Source: Terriglobia bacterium
Lineage (GTDB): Bacteria > Acidobacteriota > Terriglobia > Terriglobales > Acidobacteriaceae
DNA: 64,000 nt
Assembly (NCBI GenBank): GCA_032252755.1
Contig: JAVUPY010000052.1
Location: 124,001-188,000 of the forward strand
Direction of reading: 5' to 3'
Position numbers and translations under genes: made by a program. Below, piece after piece: positions 49,946 through 59,973 of this stretch (position 1 is the stretch's first letter; each line of letters starts with the position of its first letter). A model generated the notes under the pieces. It was not told the origin of the DNA and searched no databases. It saw only the letters and a list, made by a program, of their open reading frames with translations.

Positions 49946-51289
49946 GTATCTCAGCGCCTGTATCGGATCCAGTTTCGCCGCTCGTGACGCTGGGTACAGA
50001 GCCGCAATCAGGCTGAGGCCAACCGCGAAGAGAATCACCCAGCCGATCAGCCACCAAGGAACCGCCCAGAAGTCTTCCGGGCTCATGTTGTTGCGCCGCA
50101 TATAAAACGTCGTGCCAAAGTTGATCACTCGGCCCATGAGCCACCCCAACCCGACCCCAAGCACGCCGCCCACTAGGCCCATCACGCCAGCTTCGGCGAA
50201 GAAGAGCTTCTTTACGTCCCCATCGTCGGCGCCTAATGATTTCATGATCCCGATTTCGCGACGCCGCTCCAGCACCGCCATAACCAGCGTATTCACGATG
50301 GCCAGCGATGCCACCGCCAGCGCCAGTGATCCAAAGACGCCAAGGAACATGTCGAAGATCCCAAAAAACTTCCGCAGACTCTTGCTCGCGTCAAGGATCG
50401 AATAGGTTCGCAAGCCGAGCTTCTTGATCGCCTCCTGCACCTGCTCGACTTTCCCCGCACTCGAAACCTTCACGGTTAACATGGAATACGTCTTGCCGCC
50501 CTTGTTTGAATCCGCATTCGCCGCCGCACGCACGTCGGAGAACTGCACCATGTTCAGCGAATCTGCCATCTGCGTCGGCAGGAACAATCGCGCACGCGAG
50601 ATCATCCGCATGCCGCCGAAGGGTTCCTGGTCGATGATTCCTACCACCTTCAGCGGTTGCTCTTTCCGTACCACGGAGAACGAGAACTCGTCAGTCGATG
50701 ACGATGCCGCATCCCCCTTGTCTTCCGCTGCGTGCCGCTCCGCATAGCGCAGCACGATCTCCTTCCCGATCATCGCGTTCGGATTGTCAGGCTCCAGCGT
50801 CTTGGCAAAGTCCTTCTGCAGGATCGCTTCTTTCGCCGTCGGCGAGCTGAAGAACTTACCCTGCATGTTGTCGAAGGCATCGCCGCCCTTGGCCGACTCC
50901 GGCAGCGCCCCCATGAAGGCCGGGTACGACTTGTCCTTGTACCGGATGTCCGTCATTACCCGGATTTCGGGCGCAACCTCTACCACGTTGGGAATCTTCG
51001 CGATCTCCTGCCGTGCAGCCTCATCGACAATGCGGTTCTGCTCCGGTTGCTTTTTCTCGTTGTCATGTTCGTGATCGTCGAACTCCCTCGGCGAGGTGAC
51101 GAACACGGTGTCGAAGAGTCCCGACTTGGCGACCTTGGAATTTGCAAGCTGCTGCAGTCCAACCCCCAGCGAAAGCATCGCCACCAGCGAAGCCACTCCT
51201 ACGGCAATCCCCATTGTCGTCAGCCCATTCCGCAGCTTCGACTCACGCAAATTTCGCGAGGCCATTTCGAACAGATCGTAGCCCTTCAT
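49940..51289 (-). CDS. ABC transporter permease, MacB/LolC-E (FtsX) type
   Basis: This 449-residue permease has helix 1 at about 25-45, a large periplasmic MacB_PCD domain (about 50-300) with Asp/His-rich DDHEHDNEKKQPEQN, and three C-terminal helices within the FtsX domain (about 315-440) including NTLVMAVLERRREIGIMKSLGA and YPASRAAKLDPIQALRYE. The type usually mediates lipoprotein release or small-molecule/peptide efflux by mechanotransmission. No periplasmic adaptor gene is adjacent. It overlaps the ATPase gene by 4 bases. Confidence 0.88.
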   Translation of the reverse strand: MKGYDLFEMASRNLRESKLRNGLTTMGIAVGVASLVAMLSLGVGLQQLANSKVAKSGLFDTVFVTSPREFDDHEHDNEKKQPEQNRIVDEAARQEIAKIPNVVEVAPEIRVMTDIRYKDKSYPAFMGALPESAKGGDAFDNMQGKFFSSPTAKEAILQKDFAKTLEPDNPNAMIGKEIVLRYAERHAAEDKGDAASSSTDEFSFSVVRKEQPLKVVGIIDQEPFGGMRMISRARLFLPTQMADSLNMVQFSDVRAAANADSNKGGKTYSMLTVKVSSAGKVEQVQEAIKKLGLRTYSILDASKSLRKFFGIFDMFLGVFGSLALAVASLAIVNTLVMAVLERRREIGIMKSLGADDGDVKKLFFAEAGVMGLVGGVLGVGLGWLMGRVINFGTTFYMRRNNMSPEDFWAVPWWLIGWVILFAVGLSLIAALYPASRAAKLDPIQALRYE

Positions 51290-51987
51290 GCCGGCACCCC
51301 CTCGACCACGCGTCCGTCAGCCAGGTGAATCGACCGGCTGGCATACTCATCCGCCAGTGCCCGCTCGTGCGTCACCATGATCACCGTCATGCCAAGTGTG
51401 CGATTCAATTCGCGCAACAGCGTCATGATTTCCGTTCCCGTGTGGCTGTCCAGGTTCCCCGTCGGCTCGTCGGCCAGCAACAGCGCGGGACGATTCACCA
51501 GCGCTCGCGCGATCGCAACCCGTTGCTGTTCTCCGCCGGAGAGCTCCGGCGGGCGGTGTCCAAGGCGTTTGATCAGATCCACTCTCTCGAGCGCCTCCCT
51601 GATCCGGTTCGCCCGCTCGCCGCGATCGACTTCGGCAAACCGCAATGGCAGTTCGACGTTCTCCTCGAGCGTCATGGTCGGGATCAGGTTGAAGGATTGA
51701 AAGATCATCCCGACCGTTTCGCGCCGATAGCGCGCCAGTTCCTGCGAGGACAGCTTCGCCAGGTCGCGGCCTAGCACGTAAATGGCGCCTCCGGTCGGGC
51801 GGTCGAGCCCGGCAATCAGGTTGAGCAATGTGGATTTCCCAGACCCCGAAGCGCCGAGCAGCGCAACAAACTCCCGGCGCCCAACCGTCAGGTTCACCCC
51901 ATCGGCGGCGCGGATCAGCGAGGCCCCCATTCGGTACTGCCGGACCACATCAACGGCTCGGACAGCCAGATCATTGGACTCGGACAT
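51286..51987 (-). CDS. ABC transporter ATP-binding protein, MacB/LolD type
   Basis: This 233-residue ATPase has Walker A GASGSGKSTLLN (about 40-51), Q-loop FQSFNLIPTMTLEENVELPL, signature LSGGEQQRVAIARALV, Walker B LLADEPTGNLD and H-loop MVTHERALA. The NLI-x-x-TLEENVELPL pattern is typical of LolD/MacB. It is translated together with the permease whose start overlaps its stop. The substrate is unknown. Confidence 0.92.
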   Translation of the reverse strand: MSESNDLAVRAVDVVRQYRMGASLIRAADGVNLTVGRREFVALLGASGSGKSTLLNLIAGLDRPTGGAIYVLGRDLAKLSSQELARYRRETVGMIFQSFNLIPTMTLEENVELPLRFAEVDRGERANRIREALERVDLIKRLGHRPPELSGGEQQRVAIARALVNRPALLLADEPTGNLDSHTGTEIMTLLRELNRTLGMTVIMVTHERALADEYASRSIHLADGRVVEGVPA

Positions 51988-52066
51988 TTCTCTCCATTAT
52001 CGACGCTTATGACCTGATATACGCTTCGAATACCCTGTTTGGCGTAAAGAAATGTATAGGAAAGGT

Positions 52067-52096
52067 TTGACACTCCTTATCACACGCCCCTATGAT
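52067..52096 (+). promoter_or_regulatory. predicted sigma-70 promoter of the his operon
   Basis: TTGACA (52067-52072) and TATGAT (52091-52096) are separated by 18 bases, close to consensus. Start of transcription is expected near 52102-52104, only a few bases before the leader ORF, which would leave little or no untranslated leader. No biochemical support. Confidence 0.65.
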
Positions 52097-52101
52097 AAGG
52101 A
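52074..52101. promoter_or_regulatory. perfect 9-bp inverted repeat over the his promoter -10
   Basis: TCCTTATCA (52074-52082) and TGATAAGGA (52093-52101) with a 10-base spacer cover the -10 box. In DNA this could be an operator for a dimeric repressor; if transcription began further upstream, the RNA hairpin would hide the AAGGA ribosome site before the leader ORF. Either reading implies regulation. Confidence 0.55.
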
Positions 52102-52106
52102 CCATC

Positions 52107-52181
52107 ATGCAGACTTCGCTGGCCCATCGCCATCATCACCATCACCACGCGGCGATCGTGTCGGCGCAGGCCTGCGGATAA
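52107..52181 (+). CDS. hisL: his operon leader peptide (24 codons, seven His)
   Basis: An ATG ORF of 24 codons lies at 52107-52181. Codons 7-14 (52125-52148) read HRHHHHHH, so seven of eight codons are His, a composition that only makes sense as a translation sensor. AAGGA lies 6 bases upstream of the ATG. The stop is 22 bases before a terminator hairpin and 131 bases before hisI. A perfect palindrome CGCAGGCCTGCG (52165-52176) overlaps the end of the ORF and could serve as the pause or protector hairpin. By analogy with enterobacterial hisL, ribosome stalling at His codons would favour read-through. Confidence 0.88.
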   Translation: MQTSLAHRHHHHHHAAIVSAQACG

Positions 52182-52203
52182 AGAGAAATCATCCCAAGTT
52201 CCT

Positions 52204-52244
52204 GGCCCGCTGATGCGATCGAGCACAGCGGGCCATTCGTTTTT
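52204..52244 (+). terminator. his operon attenuator terminator
   Basis: GGCCCGCTG (52204-52212) pairs perfectly with CAGCGGGCC (52226-52234) around a 13-nt loop, followed by ATTCG and TTTTT (52240-52244). TGGCCC at 52120-52125 in the leader ORF repeats the foot of the 5' arm (52203-52208) and could compete for GGGCCA (52230-52235), one possible antiterminator pairing. No other gene ends here, so the terminator must act on the his transcript. Confidence 0.85.
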
Positions 52245-52312
52245 CCCGCTGCCTCGCCCTCGGTCCAGTAACGCGATTGGAGCGCCGGCGCCTCGCCGGC
52301 ACGGAGAAGAAC

Positions 52313-52651
52313 ATGCAACTCGACTTCGACAAAATGCAGGGCCTTGCGCCCGCCATTGTGCAGGACGCCGATAATGGTGACATCCTCATGGTGGGCTTCA
52401 TGAACCGCGAGGCCTTCGACACCACTCTGCGCACCGGCTATGTGACCTTTTACAGCCGCACCCGCAACAAGCTCTGGACCAAGGGCGAGACTAGCGGCAA
52501 CCGCCTCAAACTCGTCTCCGCCGCCACCGACTGCGACCAGGACACCGTTCTCGTCAAAGTCCGCGTCGAGGGCGACGGCCTGGTCTGCCACGAAGGTACG
52601 CGCTCCTGTTTCACCCGGCCCATCGACTTCTCCGCCGAGGTGTCGCAATGA
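52313..52651 (+). CDS. hisI: phosphoribosyl-AMP cyclohydrolase
   Basis: This protein of about 112 residues catalyses the third step of histidine synthesis (PR-AMP ring opening). It shows [49 protein letters not shown] and the zinc-binding cysteines in [13 protein letters not shown] 52313 with GGAG upstream is preferred over TTG 52277. Only the cyclohydrolase domain is present; no hisE (pyrophosphohydrolase) domain is fused or found in the operon. ATGA overlap with hisG. Confidence 0.95.
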
Positions 52652-53517
52652 ACGTTCGCCTCGGCATTCCCAAGGGCAGCCTTCAGGACGCCACCATCGC
52701 GCTTTTTGCCGCCGCTGGTTTCAAGATCTACGCCAATGGCCGCTCCTACTTCCCGACCACCGACGACCCCGAGGTCGAATGCATGTTGATTCGCGCCCAG
52801 GAAATGGCACGATACGTGGAGCACGGCGCTCTCGACGCCGGACTCACCGGCCTCGACTGGGTCGCCGAAAGCGGTCTCGAGGTCTTTCCCGTCTGCGATC
52901 TCGTTTATGCGAAACAGTCGCGCGCGAAAGTTCGTTGGGTTCTCGCGGTCCCGGAAGATTCACCCGTGAAGCGACCGGAGGATCTCTCCGGAAAAGTCAT
53001 CGCCACTGAGCTCGTACAGGTGACGAAAAACTACTTCGCGTCGAAGAATATCCCTGTGCAGGTAGAGTTTTCCTGGGGTGCAACCGAGGTCAAGCCGCCC
53101 ATTCTCGCCGACGCCATCGTCGAAGTGACCGAGACCGGCAGCTCGCTCAAAGCCAACCGCCTGCGTATCGTCGAAACCATCCTCGAATCCAACACCCAGC
53201 TCATCGCCAACACGCGCGCATGGCAAGACGAGTGGAAGCGCCGCAAAATCGAAAACATCTCACTCCTGCTACAGGGTGCCATCTCCGCGCAGGGCCGTGT
53301 CGGGCTTATGCTGAACGTCGAAACGAAAAGTTTGCCGGATGTTCTCTCGGTTCTCCCTGCGCTCAACAGCCCTACCGTGTCGCCGTTGAGCGATCCGCAG
53401 TGGGTCGCCGTCAACACCATTCTCGAAGAAAACACTGTTCGCGATATCATCCCACGCCTGAAGCAAGCGGGCGGCACTGGGATTGTCGAATATCCGCTCA
53501 ACAAGGTGGTGATGTAA
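52648..53517 (+). CDS. hisG: ATP phosphoribosyltransferase, long form
   Basis: This 289-residue enzyme catalyses the first committed step of histidine synthesis. [21 protein letters not shown] opens the catalytic domain, [12 protein letters not shown] and [20 protein letters not shown] follow, and the C-terminal 80 residues form the ACT-like regulatory domain typical of the HisZ-independent long form, so feedback inhibition by histidine is expected. Overlaps hisI by 4 and hisD by 1 base. Confidence 0.96.
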
Positions 53518-54776
53518 TGCGCGTCCTCGAACGTCAGAAGGCGCTTGATTATGCGGCCAGGAACCTCATCGATCGCGGCGCCGAACGCGATCCGAAACTC
53601 GAACGCACCGTCGAGCGCATCGTCCGCGACGTTCGCGAAGGCGGCGAGCGCAAACTTCGCGCCTACGCCGAGAAGTTCGACGGCTTGGGAAAAAAGCAGC
53701 CTCTTCGCGTCTCCGAAGAAGAGTTGCAGGGTGCCCTCGATTCCGTCTCACCGGATTTCATTACTGCCCTCGAGCGCGCAGCAGCGAACATCCGTCGCTT
53801 CGCCGAGTGGCAGAAGCCCGAATCGTGGCTGCGCGAGATCGAACCCGGACTCAAAGTCGGCCAGTCCGTCGTCCCCATCGACTCTGTCGGTTGCTACGTC
53901 CCTGGCGGACGCTACCCCCTGCCCTCGTCGCTGCTGATGACGGTCATCCCTGCGCAGATCGCCGGAGTTCCACACATCCAAGTCGCTTCTCCCAGACCCG
54001 CACCGCAGACGCTCGCCGCCGCCGCGCTGCTCGGCATCAAGCACTTCTACCGCATCGGCGGCGCGCAAGCCATCGCCGCCTTTGCCTATGGTTTAGCGGG
54101 AAAAGATGAGGACCCGGTCATTCCACGCGTGAAAAAGATCGTCGGCCCGGGCAACTCCTATGTCACGGCCGCGAAAAAGCTCGTTGCGTTCGACTGCGCG
54201 ATTGATATGCTGGCTGGCCCGACGGAAGCCATCGTGCTTGCTCACGAAGGCGATCCGAACTTCTACGCCGCCGACCTGGTCGCGCAAGCCGAACACGATC
54301 CCGACACTCTTGTTGTTTTCATCACGAGCAATCGCAAGTTGGCGAAACAGGTAGCCAACGCCTGCGGGGAGATGTCGAAGAAGAATCTGGTCGCACGTGA
54401 ATCGCTGCGCCGCAACGCCGTCACTCTTGTCATTCCCGACCGCGAAGAAGCGCTCGGCTGGGCCAATGCAATTGCCCCCGAACACATCACGGTTCCCGAG
54501 GCCGATGCGAAGTTCGTCTTCAACGCCGGATCGGTTTTTGTCGGACAATATTCTCCTCAATCGCTCGGCGACTATGCTTCCGGCCCCAACCACACGCTTC
54601 CCACCGGCGGTGCGGCGCGTTATCGTGGCGGCCTGAGCGTGCTCGACTACCTCAAGATCATCACCGTGCAGGAAGTCTCGAAGGCCGCGCTGAAGAAGAT
54701 CGCACCGACCGTCACCCTGCTCGCCGAAGCCGAGGGTTTAAAGGCGCACGCAGAGTCCGTGCGCGTGAGGCTATGA
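53517..54776 (+). CDS. hisD: histidinol dehydrogenase
   Basis: This 419-residue zinc enzyme performs the last two oxidations to histidine. Conserved segments include CYVPGGRYPLPSSLLMTVIPA, GGAQAIAAFAYG, GPGNSYVTAAKKLV, IDMLAGPTEAIV, AEHDPD and GPNHTLPTGGAARYRGGLSV. The ATG at 53517 shares its A with the hisG TAA (TAATG). Complete length. Confidence 0.97.
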   Translation: MRVLERQKALDYAARNLIDRGAERDPKLERTVERIVRDVREGGERKLRAYAEKFDGLGKKQPLRVSEEELQGALDSVSPDFITALERAAANIRRFAEWQKPESWLREIEPGLKVGQSVVPIDSVGCYVPGGRYPLPSSLLMTVIPAQIAGVPHIQVASPRPAPQTLAAAALLGIKHFYRIGGAQAIAAFAYGLAGKDEDPVIPRVKKIVGPGNSYVTAAKKLVAFDCAIDMLAGPTEAIVLAHEGDPNFYAADLVAQAEHDPDTLVVFITSNRKLAKQVANACGEMSKKNLVARESLRRNAVTLVIPDREEALGWANAIAPEHITVPEADAKFVFNAGSVFVGQYSPQSLGDYASGPNHTLPTGGAARYRGGLSVLDYLKIITVQEVSKAALKKIAPTVTLLAEAEGLKAHAESVRVRL

Positions 54777-54777
54777 C

Positions 54778-55863
54778 ATGCTGACCGCCCGTAACGTCGT
54801 CCAGAACTTGAAGGAATATCACCCTCCGCTCGGTGGCCGCACCGGACTCCGCCTCGACTTCAACGAGAACTCCAGCGGTTGCTCACCTCGTGTTCTCGAG
54901 TCGCTCTCGCGCATCAACGGCGACGTGCTCAGCAGGTATCCGGAGCGCGAACCCGTCGAGGCCATCGCCGCCGAATTCCTCGGCCTCAACCGCGATCAAG
55001 TGCTACTCACCAACGGCGTCGACGAAGCCATCCACCTCGTCTGCGAAACCTATCTCGAACCCGGCGACGAATCTCTTATTGTCGTGCCGACGTTTTCCAT
55101 GTACGAGATCTATGCCCGGGCTACCGGGGCCGATGTGTTCGCCATCTGCGCGGCGAAAGACTTCGAATTCCCCACCGCCGCCGCGCTCACTTCGATCAGC
55201 GGGAAGACCAGACTCATTGCCATAGCGAATCCCAACAACCCGACGGGCAAGGTTGTCTCTCGCGAACGCTTGATCGACGTTATTGAAGAAGCGCCCAACG
55301 CCGCCGTGCTCATCGATGAAGCCTATTTCGAGTTCTACGGCCAAACGCTGATGGATCTGATCGGCAAGTACGACAATCTGTTCATCGCGCGTACATTCTC
55401 CAAAGCCTACGGCCTCGCCGGATTCCGTGTCGGTGTGCTCGCCGGAAGCGCCACGCAGATGAAACTCGTGCGCCGCGTCAGCTCGCCGTACAACGTCAAT
55501 GGCGTCGCACTCGCCTGCCTGCCGGAAGCTCTAGCAGACCGCGAATACGTAGCCGGATACTCCGCCGAAGTCCGCGCTGGTCGTCGCCGCCTCGAAAACG
55601 AACTCGAGCAACTTGGTATCCAGTACTGGCCCAGCCAGGCGAACTTCGTTCTCGCCCGCTTTGGCAAATTCCGTAAGCCCTTCATCGAAGCCATGCGCGC
55701 ACAGGGCATTCTGGTTCGCGACCGCAACAGCGATCCCGGATGCGAAGGCTGCGTCCGAATCACCGTCGGGACCAATGACCAGACAAACCGTCTTCTGCGA
55801 GAACTCCGCGGCGCAGTCGACGCCATCGGCTGGAAACCCAGTTCCGCCGAGGCCTCCCGATGA
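54778..55863 (+). CDS. hisC: histidinol-phosphate aminotransferase
   Basis: This 361-residue PLP-dependent class I/II aminotransferase has [12 protein letters not shown] at the start, [27 protein letters not shown] and the PLP lysine in [16 protein letters not shown], then [14 protein letters not shown]. It starts one base after the hisD stop and overlaps hisB by 4 bases. Confidence 0.95.
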
Positions 55864-56447
55864 GAAAAGCTTCGCTTGCTCGCAACACTAATGAGACAAA
55901 GATTTCGCTCGCGCTCAACATTGATGGCAAGGGCCGGTACGAGATTTCGACCGGAATCCGCTTCTTCGATCACATGTTGGAACTCTTCACGCGTCACGGC
56001 GCCTTCGACCTGACGCTCTCCTGCAAGGGCGACCTCGATGTGGATCAGCACCACACCGTGGAAGACGTCGGTATCGCTCTCGGTGAAGCCTTCGATCGCG
56101 CTCTCGGCGACAAGAAAGGAATCCTTCGCGCCGGATACTTCCTGATGCCGATGGACGAAACGCTCGGCATCGCGGCCATTGATCTCGGCGGCCGCACATC
56201 GTGCGCCGTCGACACAAAAGTTCGGGTGCGCCTCGTCGGCGATCTCCAGACCGAACTCGTCTACGACTTCTTCGAAGGCTTTGCCCGTGGGGCTCGCGCC
56301 AACGTTCACCTCAAGGTGATGTATGGCCGCTCCAACCACCACAAGATCGAATCGCTGTTCAAGGCCTTCGCCCGCGCCCTACGCTTCGCCTGCGCCCGCG
56401 ACCAGCGACTTGCGGCGATGCTGCCGAGCACGAAAGGGCTTCTATGA
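55860..56447 (+). CDS. hisB: imidazoleglycerol-phosphate dehydratase (monofunctional)
   Basis: This 195-residue manganese enzyme has the two duplicated metal motifs: [13 protein letters not shown] with [14 protein letters not shown], and [20 protein letters not shown]. There is no phosphatase domain as in E. coli HisB, and a separate histidinol phosphatase is not in the operon. Start and stop overlap hisC and hisH by 4 bases. Confidence 0.96.
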
Positions 56448-57040
56448 TCGCAGTGGTCGATTACAAAGCGGCCAACCTCGCCTCGGTGCAAAAGGCGATC
56501 GCGCATCTCGGTTTCGACTCGCAGATCACCGACGATCCCGAAGTCGTCCGTCGCGCCGAGCGCGTCATTCTCCCCGGCGTTGGCCACTTCAGTACCATGC
56601 AGCGCTTGCAAGACTCTGGCCTCCGCGCAGCGATTTCTGATTCGATTCGCGAGGGCATTCCCTTTCTTGGTATCTGCGTCGGCATGCAGTGGCTTTTCGC
56701 CGGAAGCACAGAAGCGCCTGACGTCCCCGGTCTCGGTCTCTTCGAAGGCATGTGCGAGCACTTCCCCACCGGAGTGAAATCACCGCATGTCGGCTGGAAC
56801 GATTTTGAAGTCCGCGATGAGTCGACACTCTTTCGCGGCATTCCCCGAAATGCTTTCGTTTACTTCACCCATTCCTATCGTGCTCCGGTTGCAGCAGGTG
56901 TGGTTGCGACGACTCTTTACGGCACTCCCTTCGCCGCCGCCGTCGAGCGCGACAACGTCTTCGGCGTGCAGTTCCACCCGGAGAAATCCGGGGCCGCCGG
57001 AATTCAGATCCTGAAGAACTTCTGCGAGGCGGCATGCTGA
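56444..57040 (+). CDS. hisH: imidazole glycerol phosphate synthase, glutaminase subunit
   Basis: This 198-residue class I glutamine amidotransferase supplies ammonia to HisF. Nucleophile Cys in [13 protein letters not shown], catalytic His-Glu in [10 protein letters not shown] and [11 protein letters not shown] mark the triad. The start ATG 56444 overlaps the hisB stop by 4 bases; the stop overlaps hisF by 7. Confidence 0.95.
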
Positions 57041-57804
57041 CGAAGCGCATCATCGCCTGCCTCGACGTCAACCAAGGCCGTGTCGTCAAAGGGGTGCAGT
57101 TCGTCGATCTCGTCGATGCCGGCGATCCCGCCGAACTCGCACACCGTCACGCCGCCTCCGGCGCCGACGAAGTCGTGCTCCTCGACATCACCGCCACGCA
57201 CGAAGAACGCCCAATCCTGCTCGACGCCGTTCGTCGCACCGCCCGAGAGCTCTTCGTTCCATTCACCGTCGGCGGAGGCGTGCGCTCGCTCTCCGATGCT
57301 GCCGCTCTTTTCGACGCCGGCGCCGACAAAATCACAATGAATTCCGCTGCGGTCGCCCGGGCTGAACTCATCACCGAAATCGCCGAACGATTCGGTTCGC
57401 AGGCTGTGGTGCTCGCCATCGACGCTCGCCGGGGTGAGAAAGCGCCAAGGGAATCCGAAGTCTACGTTTCAGGCGGACGTAAGGCGACCGGCCTCAAAAC
57501 CATCCAGTGGGCAAGAGAAGTGGAGGATCGCGGCGCCGGCGAGATCATGCTGACGTCGATGGATCGCGACGGCACTCGCATCGGCTTCGACTGCGAACTC
57601 ACCGCTGCGGTCGCCAGCACTGTGTCGATTCCCGTGATCGCTTCCGGTGGGGCCGGCAACGCCGCGCATTTCTGCGATGTGTTTCGCGAGGGCTGCGCCG
57701 ATGCCGCGCTCGCCGCCAGCATCTTCCACTTCGGCATTCACGACGTGCGCGAACTCAAGCAATACCTGCGCGAGCAAGGAATTCCCGTGAGGCTCCCATG
57801 CTGA
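57034..57804 (+). CDS. hisF: imidazole glycerol phosphate synthase, cyclase subunit
   Basis: This 256-residue beta/alpha barrel forms IGP and AICAR. Catalytic aspartates in [14 protein letters not shown] and [15 protein letters not shown], phosphate sites [10 protein letters not shown] and IASGGAGN, and [10 protein letters not shown] all match the family. The 7-base overlaps with hisH and hisA indicate tight coupling. Confidence 0.97.
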
Positions 57805-58475
57805 TCCCATCCATCGACCTCATGGGCGGGAAAGTCGTGCAACTCGTGCAGGGCGCGACGAAAGCGCTGGAGTACGAAAACGTCGACGAGTGGATCGAGC
57901 GTTTCCGTCCGTACCCCCTCGTCCAACTCATCGATCTCGATGCCGCCATGCGCCAGGGCTCCAACCGCGATCTGATCGGCCACATCTGCGAGCGCATTCC
58001 CTGCCAGGTCGGCGGCGGGATCCGCACCCCGCAGGACGCGCAGGCACTCTTTCGCGCCGGGGCCAAGAAAGTGATCATCGGCTCCTCGCTCCAGCGTGAA
58101 GGCCGCGTTGATCTCGACGCGGCGAAATCATTCGCCCACGCCGCCGCAGCCGCGCGCCTCATCTTCGCCGTCGATTCCCGCGCCGGAAAAGTATCCATTC
58201 ACGGGTGGAAGCAAGCCACCGACCTCACCCCAGCGCAGATGATGCGCGAGACCGAATCGTACTGCGGCGCCTTCCTCTACACCCATATCGACACCGAGGG
58301 CACCATGTCCGGCTTCCCGATGGGCGTTCTGCCGGAACTGCAGTCGGCCACGAAGCGTCGCATCATCGTCGCCGGTGGAATTAGATCGATGGAAGAGGTC
58401 AAGCAATTGAACGCGCGCGGCGTCGACGCCGTCGTCGGCATGGCAATCTACACCGGAAAACTCGTCTCAGCCTGA
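57798..58475 (+). CDS. hisA: phosphoribosylformimino-AICAR ribotide isomerase
   Basis: This 225-residue barrel isomerase starts [26 protein letters not shown], with the first catalytic Asp. The second half contains [14 protein letters not shown] and [14 protein letters not shown]. It is somewhat shorter than the usual 240-250, with trimmed loops in the middle, yet both halves of the active site are there. It is the last his gene; thiM follows after 53 bases. Confidence 0.93.
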
Positions 58476-58528
58476 TCATTGAGCTTCCGCCGCTCTTCGT
58501 GAATACTGAAGTATTCGGAAAACGAGCC

Positions 58529-59338
58529 ATGCCCACACCCGCTCAATCCGCCGCCGACCTCCTCACTCGCCTCCGCCAGCGCCGACCCCTAATCCATCAC
58601 ATCACTAACTTCGTCGTGATGAACGAAACGGCAAACATCACGCTCTGCGCCGGAGGCGCTCCCGTGATGGCGCACGCCAAAGAAGAAGTTGCAGAGATGG
58701 TCGCTGCCGCTGGCGCACTCGTCCTCAACATCGGAACGCTTACGCCTGAACAGGTTGAGTCGATGCTGATCGCCGGCCGTCGTGCCAACGAACTCGACAT
58801 TCCGATCGTTCTCGACCCTGTGGGTGCCGGTGCGACCCAGCTCCGCACCGAAAGCGCTCGGCGTCTTCTCTCTGATCTGAAAATCTCAATCATCCGCGGC
58901 AATCTCGCAGAACTCGCTACCCTCGTGGGTTTCGAAGCGAAGATCGCCGGCGTTGACTCTCACGAGACCGGAACCGACCCGGAAACCGTCGCCCGAACTC
59001 TTGCGCAGAAGAATCACTGCGTAGCTGCGATCACCGGAGCCGTCGATATCGTCTCCAACGGAGCACGTTTCGCACGGATCTCCAACGGCCATCCGATGAT
59101 GGGTCGCGTCACGGGCACCGGCTGCATGTCGACGTCCATCACCGCCTGTTTCGCAGCCATCGAAGCGGACTGCTTCCTTGCAGCGACCGCCGCCCTAGCC
59201 GTCTTTGGTCTCGCCGGCGAAATCGCCGTGCGCAATTCGAAAGGCCCCGGCACCTTTCACGCGCAACTCTATGACGCCCTGGCCAACCTCACTCCCGAAG
59301 CGCTCGCTGAAGGCGCACGCATCGAGATCGTCGAATGA
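58529..59338 (+). CDS. thiM: hydroxyethylthiazole kinase
   Basis: This protein of about 269 residues phosphorylates the thiazole precursor in thiamine salvage. HHITNFVVMNETAN, ALVLNIGTL, VLDPVGAGAT, ISIIRGNLAEL and VTGTGCMSTSI are all family motifs. I used ATG 58529; GTG 58499 is possible but has no ribosome site. No TPP riboswitch lies in the 53 bases before it. The stop overlaps thiE by 4 bases. Confidence 0.95.
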   Translation: MPTPAQSAADLLTRLRQRRPLIHHITNFVVMNETANITLCAGGAPVMAHAKEEVAEMVAAAGALVLNIGTLTPEQVESMLIAGRRANELDIPIVLDPVGAGATQLRTESARRLLSDLKISIIRGNLAELATLVGFEAKIAGVDSHETGTDPETVARTLAQKNHCVAAITGAVDIVSNGARFARISNGHPMMGRVTGTGCMSTSITACFAAIEADCFLAATAALAVFGLAGEIAVRNSKGPGTFHAQLYDALANLTPEALAEGARIEIVE

Positions 59339-59973
59339 ACCCGCTCGACCTGCGTGTATACATCATCACGGCCAGCGTTCCGCATCTCGGACGCACCCAC
59401 GAAGACGTCGCCCTTGCCGCGCTCGCCGGCGGTGCTCGGATCATTCAATTTCGCGACAAAGAAATCAGCGACGAAGAATTCGCGGCCATCGCACAAAGAC
59501 TCCTGCAACTCACGCGAAAACACAACGCGCTGCTCATCATTAACGATCGCGTTGAAGTCGCTCTCGCCATCGGCGCCGATGGCGTTCACGTCGGCCAGCA
59601 CGACCTTGCCTTCGCGGAAGTCAAACGCATCTCTTGCCCCGGCATGATTATCGGCATTTCCGCCACCGACTACTCTGAAGCCATCTCGCTCGCAAGTTCC
59701 GGCGCCGACTACCTCGGAGTCGGCCCCATCTTTCCCACGCCGAGCAAAGCCGACGCCACTCCTCCCATCGGCCTCGACGAACTTGCCCGCATCTGCCGCG
59801 ACATTCGCATCCCCATCGTTGCCATCGGCGGCATCACCGAATCTAATCTCCCACAGATCATCAACATTGGCGTAGCGGGTGCCGCCGTAATCTCCGCGAT
59901 CTCCTCCGCTCCTGACATGACCGCTGCCACAGCCGCATTGCTGGGCGTCTGGAGCAAAGTTGGGGAAGATTGA
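59335..59973 (+). CDS. thiE: thiamine-phosphate synthase
   Basis: This 212-residue barrel joins HMP-PP and thiazole phosphate to thiamine phosphate. Substrate residues are in IIQFRDKEISDEEF, NALLIINDRVEVALAIGADGVHVGQHDL, YLGVGPIFPTPSKADATPPIG and VAIGGITESN. It overlaps thiM (ATGA) and ends the his-thi transcript; a hairpin region follows. Confidence 0.95.
   Translation: MNPLDLRVYIITASVPHLGRTHEDVALAALAGGARIIQFRDKEISDEEFAAIAQRLLQLTRKHNALLIINDRVEVALAIGADGVHVGQHDLAFAEVKRISCPGMIIGISATDYSEAISLASSGADYLGVGPIFPTPSKADATPPIGLDELARICRDIRIPIVAIGGITESNLPQIINIGVAGAAVISAISSAPDMTAATAALLGVWSKVGED

Follow-up and report, generated by a model that had tools for sequence, protein, structure and literature searches.

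A predicted histidine attenuator upstream of the his operon in Acidobacteriota

Sequence comparison indicates that the region directly upstream of hisI in this Terriglobia bacterium is a real and conserved his attenuator. Within the window, which is the whole 64,000-nucleotide stretch of DNA analysed, a short leader ORF rich in codons for the operon's own amino acid is followed by an intrinsic terminator before the first structural gene and by the his genes downstream, the arrangement of hisL-type attenuators. The region is predicted, with a probability of about 0.9, to attenuate transcription by a ribosome-mediated mechanism that senses charged histidyl-tRNA, like that of E. coli hisL. Control by His-tRNA charging had been proposed in a preliminary description of this DNA, and the conserved His codons, the terminator and the alternative RNA pairings lend support to that proposal. 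The mechanism is known, and its place in the Acidobacteriota is new as far as the literature was searched; no published his attenuator in Acidobacteria was found in the open-licence literature, though a report elsewhere is possible.

The leader region and the his operon

The leader region is preceded by a predicted sigma-70-like promoter on the forward strand (TTGACA-18-TATGAT, 52067–52096) that matches at 11 of 12 positions and is kept in position among relatives. This is the sole promoter-like site in the 801 bases from 51900 to 52700, where shuffled sequences hold a mean of 0.2, and 10 nt lie between its -10 box and the leader ATG. The neighbouring gene upstream (51286–51987), presumably encoding an ABC-transporter ATPase by its motifs, is on the opposite strand, so the leader ORF appears to head its own transcript. 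The leader ORF (52107–52181, forward strand) comprises 24 codons from the ATG at 52107 to the TAA at 52179–52181 and encodes the peptide MQTSLAHRHHHHHHAAIVSAQACG. Seven of the eight sensor codons at 52125–52148 specify His, and both the ORF and its His cluster are present in the sequence as first described. A 12-nt palindrome at 52165–52176 (CGCAGGCCTGCG) is likewise present, but inspection of 29 relatives by eye showed no conservation of it, and it was rejected as a working stem on that ground. The genome's two other five-His runs were rejected as leader peptides: they fall in stop-to-stop frames 232 and 123 codons long, not in short ORFs. Searching 12 genomes without hisI for a four-His pattern did not discriminate, the pattern being common.

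The terminator begins 21 nt after the leader stop codon and is composed of a hairpin at 52203–52235 (-25.7 kcal/mol) and a T-rich tail, TTCGTTTTT, that runs to 52244 on the forward strand. Its stem of 10 bp (TGGCCCGCTG/CAGCGGGCCA) extends to 13 pairs beyond one bulged A, which makes it slightly larger than the 9-bp GC stem followed by TTTTT that had been reported at this place, and it ends 78 nt before hisI. The fold of 52090–52260 is more stable than those of dinucleotide shuffles (z -2.73), with 3 of 200 shuffles as good. A simple terminator scan allowing loops of 3–8 nt did not list the hairpin of the window, probably because the uninterrupted stem encloses 13 nt.

The first structural gene, hisI (52313–52651, forward strand), is identified by NF000768 with 140 bits against a cut-off of 126. 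It is followed on the same strand by hisG, hisD, hisC, hisB, hisH, hisF and hisA in this order (52648–58475), and then by thiM (58499–59338) and thiE (59335–59973). NCBIfam agrees with the earlier assignment of eight his genes plus thiM-thiE, and all of the downstream genes reach the curated cut-off of the same-named family except hisA, whose best family, TIGR00007, scores 164.6 bits under a cut-off of 228.95. Judging from adjacency only, we infer that thiM-thiE would be carried on the his transcript. The genome consists of 5.4 Mb in 96 contigs. The acidobacterial origin put forward at the outset is borne out by the best 80 named HisI relatives, whose titles all name Acidobacteriota, Terriglobia, Acidobacteriaceae or a genus within these; they include Granulicella aggregans, Acidipila rosea, Terracidiphilus gabretensis and Paracidobacterium acidisoli.

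Conservation across Acidobacteriota

Searches for HisI in four overlapping genome samples gave matches in 48 of 61 relatives, 150 of 200 family genomes, 113 of 121 genomes drawn from the class and 88 of 149 drawn from the phylum. From 128 loci, 114 distinct hisI-upstream regions remained after two with less than 250 nt upstream (L054, L073) were dropped, together with 12 that are identical upstream to others. Within 400 nt, a short ORF in which four or more of eight codons are His is present in 113 of the 114, window included, and in none of 114 reverse complements or 114 mononucleotide shuffles. In the exception, L096, 616 nt separate the end of the His-rich ORF from hisI. This exceeds the usual distance by several hundred nt, and an insertion has probably occurred between the leader ORF and hisI. 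By eye, the leader–hisI interval of L096 resembles the end of a group II intron.

A further 79 loci, most of them outside the family, were picked by hand with one to several per family, so that their counts do not represent a random sample. A His-rich leader precedes hisI in 54 of these: 15 of 15 in the family, 31 of 40 in other families of the class and 8 of 24 in other classes. In the remaining 25 class and phylum loci no leader was found upstream of hisI; these are the picks from families f4, f9 and f10, one of the four f5 picks and 16 of the 24 picks from other classes. HisI of the loci without a leader is often more distant and lies in a longer frame, which suggests another type of operon. 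Twelve family genomes that are 95–100% complete by listing, drawn from the 50 family genomes without a HisI match, were tested for HisD (G004, G010, G011, G014, G022, G023, G025, G065, G068, G071, G072, G083). HisD is also absent from 11 of the 12, and these genomes are therefore probably histidine auxotrophs that have lost the operon.

The terminator is recognised in 163 of the 165 loci having a leader. The preliminary description had named conservation of the His run and terminator among relatives as a check on its reading, and both are conserved, the former in 113 of 114 regions. In the two other loci, L156 and L200, a leader ORF and a hairpin are seen by eye without a clear T tract or recognised terminator, and the switch may have been lost or changed there. 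Within the eight-codon clusters of the 163 loci the third base of the His codons varies while the amino acid is kept (599 CAT and 410 CAC). The tail of the peptide is alike within the family (VSAEVCG and similar) and differs between families, for example GMGGRSLF in L147 and EVWCQWVLA in L176.

The promoter is detected in 153 of 163 loci, and its -10 box ends 6–12 nt before the leader ATG in 141 of 163, compared with 2.8 of 163 for shuffled sequence. A Shine-Dalgarno match of at least 4 nt is absent from 132 of the 163 leaders; hisI has such a match in 137 of 163, where several start codons were tried, which favours a match. A close -10 box and the lack of a Shine-Dalgarno site are the sequence marks of a leaderless mRNA, and given both of these, the leader ORF is probably leaderless or nearly so. 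In a survey of leaderless genes, their sign is a TANNNT box about 12 bp upstream of the start, counted from the first T, and such genes make up 13.3% on average of three Acidobacteria genomes (PMC3160421). The commonest distance from TANNNT to the start codon in the loci studied here is 14–16 bp, also counted from the first T, which predicts a 5' leader between zero and about four nt long. The AAGGA at 52097–52101, which stands ahead of the leader ATG in the window, would lie before the transcript start given a leader of this predicted length. The near-leaderless leader is the most unusual feature of this attenuator.

Alternative pairings and the predicted switch

Three regions of the forward strand account for two alternative pairings besides the terminator's own. 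Region 1 (52117–52131, CGCTGGCCCATCGCC) is predicted to pair with region 2 in untranslated RNA through GCTGGC and GTCGGC. Region 2 (52152–52173, GCGATCGTGTCGGCGCAGGCCT) codes for the tail of the peptide, contains a conserved core, GTGTCGGCG, at 52158–52166 and supplies the 5' half of the antiterminator. Region 3 (52203–52222) is the 5' arm of the terminator plus its loop and the 3' half of the antiterminator, and its duplex with region 2 reaches -31.6 kcal/mol in the window. The sequence after the sensor codons is thus able to pair with the 5' arm of the terminator, and the antiterminator, which had been described as not clean, becomes clearer by comparison as region 2 with this arm. A competition of TGGCCC at 52120–52125 for GGGCCA had also been suggested. 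This was rejected as the main switch, as it is not conserved in 29 relatives whereas the pairing of region 2 is kept; the TGGCCC stretch is part of region 1. The suggestion that the mechanism could differ from hisL gives way to the 1:2 and 2:3 pairings, which provide a hisL-like logic.

Both pairings were compared between own and swapped partners, a test that is independent of alignment and in which relatedness is not fully removed, the control pairing 2:4 serving as a guard. The groups were 37 loci from outside the family and 60 from within it (the first of 124), and the same-order loci L031 and L033 belonged to neither. The 2:3 pairing gives z -7.3 outside the family and -6.4 inside, and the 1:2 pairing gives -7.0 and -6.6 respectively, with 0 of 300 permutations as good for either pairing in each group. 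The control 2:4 gives z -0.6 (84 of 300) outside and -1.5 (19 of 300) inside. Shuffle tests on single loci are weaker, with at most 5 of 100 shuffles matching 2:3 in 120 of 163 loci and 1:2 in 87 of 163.

An alignment of 28 family loci, hand-picked for a similar leader layout, was also scored. The 2:3 helix is paired in 94.8% of cells as against 24–53% when slid by 1 to 3 columns, three of its pairs change on both sides, and its covariation score is above all 500 shuffles. The terminator pairs hold in 89.7% of cells as against 31–50% slid. None of 500 shuffles reaches the terminator's values for paired cells, for cells changed on both sides or for covariation score; its doubly changed pairs (reached by 60 of 500) and pair types (206 of 500) are not above shuffles in this alignment. 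The protector pairing 1:2, positive in the swap tests, is paired in 75.9% of cells as against 40–60% slid, and among these 28 close relatives its covariation is not above shuffles, 172 of 500 of which reach it.

From this arrangement we infer that RNA polymerase would start just ahead of the leader ATG and that a ribosome would load at the 5' end. With charged His-tRNA, the ribosome would translate past the His codons, reach the stop at 52179 and cover most of region 2, leaving region 3 to pair with its own 3' arm, and transcription would terminate at the T-rich tract before hisI. When charged His-tRNA is scarce, the ribosome would be expected to stall on the His codons and cover region 1. Region 2 would then be free to capture region 3 ahead of synthesis of the terminator's 3' arm, and transcription would continue into the his operon. 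Without translation, region 1 would pair with region 2 and the terminator would form.

Ribosome placement was imitated in the 163 loci by removing all RNA behind the leading edge of a model ribosome and folding the remainder. If the ribosome stands on a middle His codon and the transcript stops short of the 3' arm, at least half of the terminator's 5' arm finds partners upstream in 159 of 163 loci. Once the 3' arm is complete, with the ribosome still on the His codons, the lowest-energy fold contains the terminator in 133 of 163 loci and the antiterminator in just 29, so the switch must rely on the order of folding. The same behaviour is seen in E. coli hisL, the only known attenuator folded in this way, including with a complete 3' arm, and this dependence therefore does not speak against attenuation. 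A ribosome placed at the stop codon leaves the terminator to form in all 163 loci, a result that is nearly built in, as only downstream RNA is folded. In free RNA it forms in 159 of the 163.

Other explanations of the same region were weighed against attenuation of transcription. The ORF could encode a His-rich small peptide with its own function, such as metal binding, the hairpin being an ordinary terminator of a short transcript. The strong conservation of the His run and the likeness of the tail within the family would agree with this, but the tail differs between families and yet its RNA stays complementary to its own terminator arm, and the ORF directly precedes hisI; such a peptide is considered very unlikely. 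Pairing that hides the hisI ribosome site, so that translation rather than transcription is attenuated, has precedent, as some attenuators are described as acting on translation (PMC9413887), and in a few loci (L157, L171) the hairpin is at or next to the nominal hisI start. A T-rich tract nevertheless follows the hairpin in 163 of 165 loci and the stem in the window ends 78 nt short of hisI, and control at the level of translation is rated lower again.

The same low rating is given to termination at a constant rate, or to control by a protein or small molecule, in which the His ORF would be incidental or would only aid ribosome loading. Counted on its side is the lack of any Rfam family at gathering score in the window, so that there is no known ligand-binding reading. 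Against it, the amino acid of the sensor codons is conserved while the third base changes, and the sequence that follows remains complementary to the terminator arm of the same locus. Attenuation of transcription through the sensing of charged histidyl-tRNA remains the preferred reading. A broader proposal, to which we would give even odds, is that this his attenuator is ancestral to a large part of the Acidobacteriota, has a leaderless leader ORF, originated independently of hisL and has a peptide tail dictated only by RNA pairing. If so, promoter, start codon, His sensor and switch would be packed into about 180 nt (52067–52244), the ribosome would load directly on the 5' AUG as this leaves the polymerase, and a class of leaderless attenuators would have arisen independently of hisL.

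Relation to known attenuators

As in the window, the short leader ORF of E. coli hisL contains seven His codons, and a terminator precedes the operon. The hisL leader differs in belonging to another phylum and in preceding hisG, where the first gene here is hisI. In E. coli, 38 nt separate the closest TANNNT from the ATG, compared with 10 nt for the -10 box of the window, and the acidobacterial leaders, unlike hisL, are mostly without a Shine-Dalgarno match. Rfam represents the gamma-proteobacterial his attenuator by His_leader (RF00514). No Rfam family, including His_leader and T-box, reaches its gathering score in the window. A relaxed search of 12 test loci up to E 5 returned 15 matches, all below gathering scores, and His_leader and T-box are absent from these. 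The most informative of the 15, a Leu_leader match upstream of hisI in L031 (31.8 bits versus 50 for gathering, E 0.0073), is a general attenuator-like resemblance.

The preliminary description had assigned attenuation of this kind to gamma-proteobacteria and T-boxes to Firmicutes, a scope that proves too narrow, as His-leader attenuators have already been predicted in some Firmicutes (PMC9413887; PMC2965389). The former lists predicted his attenuators in the Bacillus cereus group, Eubacteriales and Erysipelotrichales, in 17 genomes (PMC9413887). These are similar in placing a His leader peptide, a terminator and an antiterminator before a his operon outside Proteobacteria and, compared by description, differ in having three to five His codons in a row (PMC9413887). 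The trpL attenuator RNA of Sinorhizobium meliloti begins at the ATG of its leader ORF and is leaderless; it senses tryptophan and belongs to the Alphaproteobacteria (PMC7298713). Actinobacterial attenuators likewise combine a leader peptide with a terminator outside Proteobacteria, although the classical ones, going by the abstract, belong to trp operons, trpS and leuS and not to his (PMC1262725). No his attenuator in Acidobacteria is mentioned in the available portions of PMC4833913 or PMC2965389, and the former points to large leader-gene tables, which may list the ORF of the window.

The predicted attenuator adds a conserved and testable His-sensing switch in another phylum. Its occurrence suggests either that the hisL-like logic goes back much further than assumed or that it evolved repeatedly. 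If confirmed, the near-leaderless leader would offer a compact natural system for studying the pacing of ribosome and polymerase without Shine-Dalgarno loading.

Other biosynthetic genes of the same genome were inspected by eye, and no leader was seen upstream of trpE or of three ilvB-like genes. A mini-ORF, MKTRW, lies directly before trpE (L219) and is not conserved in the trpE loci of 29 relatives. A -10-like box is close to the start codon in several of these 29 trpE loci. Directly before the hisI ribosome site of the window there is a further hairpin, GCCGGCG-CCT-CGCCGGC, at 52284–52300. Elsewhere in the genome it recurs once exactly and four times with a single mismatch, and its pattern with up to two mismatches gives 18 matches compared with 7 for a reversed control pattern; this hairpin is perhaps a dispersed repeat.
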